Origin: Deltaproteobacteria bacterium | GTDB taxonomy: Bacteria > Desulfobacterota > DSM-4660 > Desulfatiglandales > HGW-15 | Length of the DNA: 55,496 nucleotides | Assembly: GCA_016930795.1 (NCBI GenBank) | Contig: JAFGFY010000026.1 | Span: forward strand, 1 to 55,496 | Reading direction: 5' to 3' | Shown: piece by piece, positions 33,221 to 35,539 of the stretch | How the letters are laid out: each line of letters begins with the position of its first letter | Position numbering within the stretch: position 1 is the first letter of the stretch | Position numbers and translations under genes: made by a program | Notes under the pieces: model-generated | Told to the model about the DNA's origin: nothing | Database searches by the model: none | Seen by the model: only the letters and a program-made list of their open reading frames with translations

Positions 33221-35539
33221 ATGGCAAAGAAGCTAGGAAACATCCTTGACCACATAGGCGGGACACCGCTGGTTCCCATCAAACGGCTGAACTCCAACAG
33301 GGATGTCCAAATTTTAGCAAAACTGGAGTCTTTCAACCCGGGTGGTTCCGTCAAGGACCGCCCCGCCTTTGCCATGATAGAGGAGGGGGAAAGGAGGGGA
33401 CAGCTGACAAAAGAGAAGGTCATCCTTGAGGCTACCAGCGGGAATACGGGGATTGGACTGTCTCTTGTCGCAGCGGTTAAGGGGTACCGGATCCTTTTGG
33501 TTATGTCTGAATCCGTCAGTGAAGAGCGAAAAAAGGTCCTGCGGGCCATGGGAGCCGATTTAGTCTTTACGCCTGCTCATCTAGGAACAGACGGGGCCAT
33601 TGAGTTTGTCTATGATCTGATCCGGGAAGAACCTGAAAAATACTGGCTCGCCGACCAATTCAACAATGAGGCAAATTGGAGAGCTCATTATGATGGGACG
33701 GCTTCGGAAATTTGGGAGCAGACCAATGGGAATCTGGATGTGATTGTTGCCACCATGGGAACAACAGGGACCCTGATGGGGCTTTCAAGATGGTTCAAGG
33801 GGCTTAAGCCGGAGGTGGAAATCGTGGGTGTAGAGCCTTACCTTGGACATAAGATCCAAGGCCTGAAAAACATGAAGGAATCCTACTGCCCAGGTATATT
33901 TGAAAAGGGCCGAGTGGATCGGATCATTAATATTGAAGATGAAGAGGCCTATCACATGGCCAGGGTGTTAGCCAAAGAAGAGGGAATCTTTGTAGGCATG
34001 AGCTCGGGAGCGGCCATGACCATTGCGCTGAAGATTGCCAAGGAGATGAAACAAGGCCGGATCGTGGTTATTTTGCCTGACTCAGGTGAGAGATACCTCA
34101 GTACCTCCCTTTTTGCAGTCAAAGAAAAATCGGGTATAGTCCTTTACAACACGATGACGCGAAAAAAGGATGAGTTTGTCCCGATTCATGAAAAAAGGGT
34201 GAAGATCTATACTTGTGGTCCCACCCTCTGCCAGCTGATTCACATCGGGCAAAGCCGACGTCTTGTCTTTTCAGATCTGTTAAGGCGTTATCTTGAGTTC
34301 AAGGGGTATCATGTTACTCACATCATGAATGTGACGGATCTGGATGACCGAACCATAGAAGGAGCAGACAAGGCAGGCCAATCCCTCAAAGATTTTACAG
34401 AAGGTTTCTATCAGGAATTCCTAAGAGACCTAGATACCCTGAGAATCAAGAGGGCTGCGGACTATCCCAAGGCCAGTGAGTATGTGGAGGACATGATCAG
34501 AGTAGCCCAGAAACTCATGGACAAGGGGTATGCTTATGAAAAACTGAGGTCTGTCTATTTCGATATATCGCGATTTGAAGACTATGGAAAGCTATCCAGG
34601 ATAGACCTTGACAAGATTCGTTTGGGAAAGACAGTGGATCTGGAAGAGTATGAAAAAGAAAATCCCCGGGATTTCACCCTTCTCAAGAGAGCCAGTCTCC
34701 ATGAACTGAAGAAAGGCATATTTTTCAAGACCAGGTGGGGAAACATTCGGCCGAGCTGGCACCTGGAATGCCCGGCCATGGCCATGAAGCTTCTGGGAGA
34801 TACCTATGATATACACATGAGCGGATCCGACCTGATCTTTCCACATCATGAAAACACCATCGCCATCAGCAAGGCGGTCACCGGAAAACCGCCTGCCCAT
34901 TATTGGCTCCACAATGAGTTGGTGATGGTCGAAGGGAAAAAGCCTTCCCGCGGTTCCGATCATGATGCCTATACCATTAGGCGAATTTTAGAGCAAGGTT
35001 ACACCGGGAGGGTGATCCGATTTTGGCTTCTTAGCCGTCATTACCGAAAACCCATATCTTTTTCGTGGTCAAGCCTCGATGCGGCCAAGAATACCGTCGC
35101 GCATCTGGATTTGTTTGTCGAAAAGCTCAGGTCCTCCTCGCCCGGTGGCCCTTATTCGGAGATGGATCAACTGCTCTACAATCTGAAACATAAGTTTATC
35201 GAAGCCATGGACGATGACCTAAACATGGCTCTCGCCCTGGCATCTCTTTTCGAGTTCACACGAGAGGTCAACCGTGTTATGGATCAAAGGGGTCTCTCAA
35301 CTCTGGACAAACAGAAGGCGGGAGAGGGACTTCAGGAGATCAACTCGTTTATGGACATTCTGGATTTAGAGCCTTCGAAACCGGGAGAAGAGGTGGAGAA
35401 ACGAGTTAAGGAGAGAGAAGAGGCCAGGAAAAAGAAGGATTGGGCAGCGGCAGACCGGATTCGTCAAGAATTGAAGGACATGGGCATCGAGGTGATCGAC
35501 ACGAAAGAGGGACCTGTATGGCGGATGGAAAAAGAGTGA
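33221..35539 (+). CDS. fusion protein: cysteine synthase (PLP) + cysteinyl-tRNA synthetase-like domain
   Basis: N-terminal half: IGGTPLVPIKRL, SFNPGGSVKDRPA (PLP Lys), ATSGNTGIGLSLVA. From about residue 305: LYNTMTRKKDEFVPIHEKRVKIYTCGPTLCQLIHIGQSRRLVFSDLLRRYL, RPSWHLECPAM, DIHMSGSDLIFPHHENT. Single uninterrupted frame. Confidence 0.92.
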   Translation: MAKKLGNILDHIGGTPLVPIKRLNSNRDVQILAKLESFNPGGSVKDRPAFAMIEEGERRGQLTKEKVILEATSGNTGIGLSLVAAVKGYRILLVMSESVSEERKKVLRAMGADLVFTPAHLGTDGAIEFVYDLIREEPEKYWLADQFNNEANWRAHYDGTASEIWEQTNGNLDVIVATMGTTGTLMGLSRWFKGLKPEVEIVGVEPYLGHKIQGLKNMKESYCPGIFEKGRVDRIINIEDEEAYHMARVLAKEEGIFVGMSSGAAMTIALKIAKEMKQGRIVVILPDSGERYLSTSLFAVKEKSGIVLYNTMTRKKDEFVPIHEKRVKIYTCGPTLCQLIHIGQSRRLVFSDLLRRYLEFKGYHVTHIMNVTDLDDRTIEGADKAGQSLKDFTEGFYQEFLRDLDTLRIKRAADYPKASEYVEDMIRVAQKLMDKGYAYEKLRSVYFDISRFEDYGKLSRIDLDKIRLGKTVDLEEYEKENPRDFTLLKRASLHELKKGIFFKTRWGNIRPSWHLECPAMAMKLLGDTYDIHMSGSDLIFPHHENTIAISKAVTGKPPAHYWLHNELVMVEGKKPSRGSDHDAYTIRRILEQGYTGRVIRFWLLSRHYRKPISFSWSSLDAAKNTVAHLDLFVEKLRSSSPGGPYSEMDQLLYNLKHKFIEAMDDDLNMALALASLFEFTREVNRVMDQRGLSTLDKQKAGEGLQEINSFMDILDLEPSKPGEEVEKRVKEREEARKKKDWAAADRIRQELKDMGIEVIDTKEGPVWRMEKE

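Follow-up and report, generated by a model that had tools for sequence, protein, structure and literature searches.

In a window of 55,496 nucleotides, the whole stretch of DNA analysed here, we found a 772-aa reading frame that joins a cysteine synthase (OASS) to a CysRS-like half. Our reading, which we hold with about even confidence and which rests on sequence comparison, is that the protein is the main cysteine synthase of its host, covalently joined to a CysRS which has retired from catalysis and would still bind tRNACys through its anticodon domain. In support of this, the OASS site is intact, the activation site is decayed in most members of the family and a canonical CysRS is encoded elsewhere in the genome. 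A tRNA-binding pseudo-synthetase is expected to lose activation selectively while it keeps the ability to read the anticodon, and this is the pattern seen here. The window protein is best read as neither a simple bifunctional enzyme nor an MshC-type ligase.

In other bacteria the feedback control of cysteine synthesis is exerted on CysE. The pseudo-synthetase could replace this feedback in the present host, which appears to lack CysE. The CysRS half would bind tRNACys through its anticodon-binding domain, and occupancy by tRNACys would either alter the OASS activity or keep the OASS near the canonical CysRS and the tRNA. The tRNA state involved would most likely be uncharged tRNACys, accumulating when cysteine is short. 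The fused half would then act like the HisRS-like domain of Gcn2, but directly on a biosynthetic enzyme. Only tentatively do we extend this to the proposal that a biosynthetic enzyme which reads the anticodon of its own tRNA, and is directly controlled by the charging of tRNACys, is widespread in Desulfobacterota.

The fused reading frame and its cysteine synthase half

The reading frame occupies positions 33221..35539 of the plus strand, on which all features given below lie, starts with ATG and contains no internal stops. A single OASS-CysRS ORF had been claimed in the original prediction and is borne out by the ORF reading and by Pfam, which placed PALP at residues 8-287, tRNA-synt_1e at 319-623, DALR_2 at 658-714 and CysS_C at 724-768. 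The accompanying worry about an assembly error was ruled out. The same architecture of ~770 aa is present in 134 homologous sequences, some of them in single-contig genomes, and chance or an assembly artefact was rejected on this ground.

Residues 1-299 (33221..34117) form an OASS/CysM-type PLP enzyme (PALP 237 bits), which passed the NCBIfam cysKM subfamily cut-off of 344.15 with 367.6 bits. The OASS motifs PGGSxKDR (NPGGSVKDR, residues 39-47, 33335..33361) and TSGNTG (residues 72-77, 33434..33451) are intact, and across 102 aligned members we observed no variation at the PLP lysine K45 or at S73-G77 of the substrate free-carboxylate loop. In the predicted structure this half matches CysM 2bhs with a Foldseek TM-score of 0.97. 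It shares its active-site motifs and ~42% identity with the CysM/CysK enzymes 2bhs and 2jc3, which unlike the window protein are stand-alone. In the OASS family the TSGNTG loop holds a free carboxylate, and as this loop is present the OASS half should release its cysteine in free form instead of building it on a tRNA.

The fused OASS is the only recognisable cysteine synthase in the host genome (G000, 4.2 Mb, 94% complete). No CysE (serine acetyltransferase) was found over the cut-off in this genome, so that the acceptor substrate of the fused OASS may be O-phosphoserine as an alternative to O-acetylserine. We considered the lid residue K216 as a mark of O-phosphoserine specificity, but in E. 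coli CysM, which works on O-acetylserine, the aligned residue is R210, so that K216 is non-diagnostic. A pattern search returned one tRNACys with anticodon GCA, and no SepRS exceeded the cut-off. Cysteine synthesis on the tRNA was therefore rejected, the free-carboxylate loop being intact as well. The fusion resembles the SepRS-SepCysS-SepCysE transsulfursome in coupling cysteine synthesis to tRNACys and differs from it on the same two points, as the transsulfursome makes cysteine on the tRNA.

Activation site and anticodon contacts of the CysRS-like half

The CysRS-like half comprises residues 306-772 (34136..35536) and was identified by profile matches and by a fold match to 1u0b_B. AlphaFold2 on 102 sequences gave a pLDDT of 89.8 and a pTM of 0.74, with low confidence in two places, residues 468-478 and the surroundings of the former KMSKS loop. 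With Foldseek we obtained a TM-score of 0.91 of the target for the CysRS 8qhp and of 0.82 for the CysRS-tRNACys complex 1u0b_B, the latter over 486 columns that take in the anticodon domain. Canonical bacterial CysRS (1li5, 1u0b, 8qhp) thus shares the whole fold, 38% identity in the case of 8qhp and the anticodon-binding residues with the fused half, whereas KMSKS, HIGH and E238 are changed in the fusion, which carries an OASS and forms a separate clade.

The four motif readings made beforehand proved correct. CGPTLCQ (residues 332-338, 34214..34234) provides C332, the equivalent of the E. coli zinc ligand C28. In the degenerate HIGH motif HIGQSR (residues 341-346, starting at H341; 34241..34258) the second His is replaced, giving HIGQ. 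FPHHENT (residues 540-546, starting at F540; 34838..34858) retains H542, equivalent to H234, and has T546 at the position of zinc ligand E238. The KMSKS loop remnant KKPSRGSDHDAYT (residues 573-585, 34937..34975) reads KPSRG with an insertion: K573-KPSRGSDHDAYT replaces EKMSKSLGNFxT and is longer by one residue. A further zinc ligand, C517 (C209), lies in WHLEC (residues 513-517, 34757..34771), so the zinc set is incomplete only at E238. The DALR domain (residues 658-714, 35192..35362; Pfam DALR_2) is followed by the anticodon-binding domain CysS_C (residues 724-768, 35390..35524), in which R732, R736, W741, D745, R748 and D760 correspond to R423, R427, W432, D436, R439 and D451 of E. coli. 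The contacts R732, R736, W741, D745 and D760 are all present, and conservation at the contact residues across the family is 82-100%. When E. coli CysRS is bound to tRNACys, G34 of the anticodon is hydrogen-bonded to R427 and D436, W432 stacks on G34, and the water network of G34 is held by R423 and D436 (PMC12684709). The residues of aminoacylation are lost and the putative tRNA-binding residues are retained, as in a pseudo-synthetase.

To obtain a decay profile we mapped the 134 members to E. coli CysRS and reduced them to 74 sequences at 75% identity. Identity to E. coli in the KMSKS motif was 0.61 for K266, 0.20 for M267, 0.38 for S268, 0.05 for K269 and 0.16 for S270, and in the HIGH motif 0.50 for H37, 0.62 for G39 and 0.12 for H40. 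The anticodon residues reached 1.00 for R423, 0.96 for R427, 0.82 for W432, 1.00 for D436, 1.00 for R439 and 0.99 for D451; where W432 is not Trp, it is Phe or Tyr. Mean identities were 0.28 for KMSKS, 0.41 for HIGH and 0.94 for the anticodon contacts. All four anticodon residues are kept in 128/134 members, and in 24/25 of those with at most two zinc ligands. On a tree of 59 fusions KMSKS is intact in 5/59 and the anticodon set in 56/59, and the changes required were 11 for H-x-G, 8 for the zinc set and 2 for the anticodon set. In the most degraded members (L151-L159) the zinc cysteines and both ATP motifs are gone, while in the two that we scanned the anticodon domain is still above the Pfam cut-off. 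In the most degraded member CysS_C exceeds its cut-off and the catalytic-domain match is down to 96 bits. The conservation of the anticodon domain could be partly structural. As a control, CysRS paralogs that have moved away from tRNACys either miss the anticodon domain (CysRS* and a shorter clade, see below) or have a model that ends before it (MshC).

We estimated dN/dS for the CysRS half at 0.03-0.33 in 15 close pairs, degenerate lineages included; these values indicate purifying selection on a half that is in use and does not drift. For nine genomes with both genes the mean pairwise identity was 75% for the OASS halves, 61% for the CysRS halves and 67% for the canonical CysRS.

A KMSKS-like loop is intact in only 8/134 members, and the same number combine it with all four zinc ligands and H-x-G. 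These eight, with KMSRS, may fit an enzyme in which one chain both synthesises cysteine and loads it onto tRNACys. We consider this reading unlikely for the window protein, even though it keeps C332, C517, H542, HIG and the full-length CysRS architecture, and passes the NCBI cysS equivalog TIGR00435 (412 bits, cut-off 340). Divergent KMSKS loops do occur in some class I synthetases. The loop, however, is not intact in the other 126 members and is deleted in some, HIGH and the zinc ligands were lost repeatedly with the remainder under selection, and E238 is Thr in the window protein. A second, canonical cysS, which the original prediction had proposed to look for, is present elsewhere in the host genome (C268, 454 bits) with CGVTVYD, HIGHAR, FPHHENE and KMSKS. 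With this gene and the degenerate motifs, the window protein probably does not channel cysteine to tRNACys, one of the functions first suggested; the eight members whose motifs are intact may do so. The other suggestion, a repurposed paralog, gained support from the separate canonical CysRS and from the family-wide degeneration of the catalytic motifs.

At the zinc site, C28, C209, H234 and E238 were found in 0.78, 0.81, 0.99 and 0.42 of the 74 sequences, and as most members retain three or four ligands, cysteine binding may persist in most of them. The equivalents of C28, C209 and H234, present in 78%, 81% and 99% of the non-redundant members, would suit a sensor similar to HisZ, in which the zinc pseudo-active site binds cysteine and feedback-inhibits the attached OASS with tRNA uninvolved; HisZ is a precedent for a synthetase paralog that mediates feedback inhibition (PMC4335047). 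Such a sensor leaves the near-invariant anticodon contacts unexplained, and several lineages keep the fusion without the zinc cysteines. We therefore give it little probability as the sole function, and cysteine sensing could be either a rival or a complement to tRNA sensing.

Segment 439-513 is highly conserved, specific to the fusion and contains the low-confidence loop 468-478. Together with the full CysRS fold kept in the predicted structure it might point to a scaffold, where the CysRS half docks the synthase on tRNACys, the canonical CysRS or another partner and leaves its kinetics unchanged. The lack of a conserved gene neighbour at 95 loci speaks against this, and we regard it as improbable.

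An MshC-like or other cysteine ligase, which would couple cysteine after its activation to a small amine or a carrier, was also among the functions first suggested. MshC is a CysRS paralog and the window protein does match TIGR03447, but at 170.5 bits it stays far under the cut-off of 485.1, and the ATP motifs are decayed. The 411-position MshC model covers only residues 304-685 and stops short of the anticodon domain, the best-kept part of the protein. MshC lacks the CysRS anticodon domain, whereas the window protein has CysS_C at 724-768. We find this option very improbable and the suggestion is disfavoured.

We also rejected a persulfide synthase: three of the four PLP-binding lysines are replaced (K73 by R377, K76 by E380, K269 by R577) and the fourth, K266, is kept as K574.

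Distribution and history of the fusion

The 134 homologous OASS-CysRS sequences are from Desulfobacterota, where 121/296 sampled genomes carry the fusion, with identities down to ~44%. The carriers are for the most part bacteria of the sulfate-reducing type. When 85,462 species genomes were scanned, 80 best loci came back, nearly all labelled Desulfobacterota or Deltaproteobacteria. We found no full-length fusion in plasmid records. A fusion with 56% identity (L083) occurs in a MAG labelled Candidatus Aminicenantes, which reflects either transfer or mis-binning.

CysE was absent in 63/121 fusion genomes compared to 31/174 of the others, with an odds ratio of 5 that ignores relatedness; about half of the fusion genomes have CysE. 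For bacteria lacking CysE, the fusion hints at another point at which the supply of cysteine could be controlled. A PF01406 search of 27 fusion genomes detected a separate canonical CysRS in 26/27. In the lone exception, G052 (single contig, 5.1 Mb, 8% contamination), we found the fusion and a shorter CysRS-like protein and no canonical CysRS. Either of the two proteins could charge tRNACys there, or the assembly could be faulty.

The phylogeny that had been asked for separates the CysRS halves as one clade (SH-aLRT 97) from canonical CysRS, and E. coli CysRS falls within the canonical group. The OASS halves likewise group in a single clade (95/82), and its sister group consists of stand-alone OASSs from other families of the phylum. 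As each half is monophyletic, a single fusion event with no later fission would explain the sample. Members with near-canonical motifs (L134-136, L138, L139, L143, L146 and L147) branch close to canonical CysRS where they were sampled in the tree. This position, and the eight members that look catalytically intact, suggest that the ancestor was probably active and that decay followed repeatedly.

Two apparent exceptions to the full-length architecture were dismissed. The truncated fusion in G121 is merely at a contig end. In G040 the fusion gene (L196 528-4523, G040:C89) is broken near residue 490, where an insertion brings in a 344-aa ORF that resembles an IS110-type transposase, which explains the split; a separate CysRS and a further OASS are also encoded in this genome.

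No constant functional partner was found among the neighbours at 95 fusion loci. The commonest downstream gene (31/95 loci) gave no Pfam match for the first 150 residues of its product. At 28/95 loci (e.g. L045, MTPVYFPYTYISNPVAEAVAACFGRF...) a conserved gene, likewise with no Pfam match over the first 150 residues of its product, adjoins the fusion directly downstream on the same strand. The upstream neighbour often resembles thymidylate kinase.

Related systems and annotation

The closest parallels are regulatory. In the eukaryotic Gcn2 a degenerate HisRS-like domain is also fused to an effector, and the report of tRNA charging is what we propose for OASS-CysRS (PMC4335047). Gcn2 differs in its kinase effector and its class II synthetase, and its binding of uncharged tRNA is demonstrated, whereas for OASS-CysRS we infer it. 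HisZ, the HisRS paralog regulating HisG, likewise is a degenerate synthetase that governs the biosynthetic enzyme of its own amino acid (PMC4335047). It is a separate subunit sensing histidine and not tRNA, unlike the covalent OASS-CysRS with its anticodon domain.

Our literature search covered open full texts and found no description of an OASS-CysRS fusion, so that the novelty of the arrangement is provisional. The passages searched in a review of synthetase duplication and in a survey of prokaryotic cysteine-encoding systems do not mention it. If our reading is true, amino-acid synthesis is tied to the tRNA state within a single protein, without transcriptional control. The family offers a natural series from an apparently active synthetase to a clear pseudoenzyme within one gene family, which makes it possible to test in what order catalysis and tRNA binding disappear. 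Automatic names for the family are probably misleading and pipelines would probably call the window protein a CysRS, since the TIGR00435 cut-off is exceeded in spite of the damaged catalytic motifs. In this phylum, an annotation as cysteine--tRNA ligase may thus be carried by proteins that do not charge tRNA.

In G173, which is rated 100% complete, CysRS was not detected with PF01406 (best E 3e-7), and SepRS also stayed below its cut-off; a gene missing from the assembly is one option. CysRS* of Desulfobacterales is also a CysRS paralog from related bacteria, but it has no anticodon domain and charges SelC*, a pattern of loss opposite to that of the fusion (PMC9437257). We further encountered a second CysRS-like clade (L117-L124 from G031, G010, G038, G004, G040, G056, G052 and G014, and L209 5765-6982) of ~405-450 aa, likewise without the anticodon domain. 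We detected no tRNA genes within the 12-kb stretches that surround three members of this clade. KMSKS is kept and HIGN mostly so, the zinc ligand Cys209 is changed to Asp and FPHHENE to RHHDYT-like sequences. The one member that was scanned (L119) lies just below the cysS equivalog cut-off, and the clade may be related to CysRS* of Desulfobacterales.
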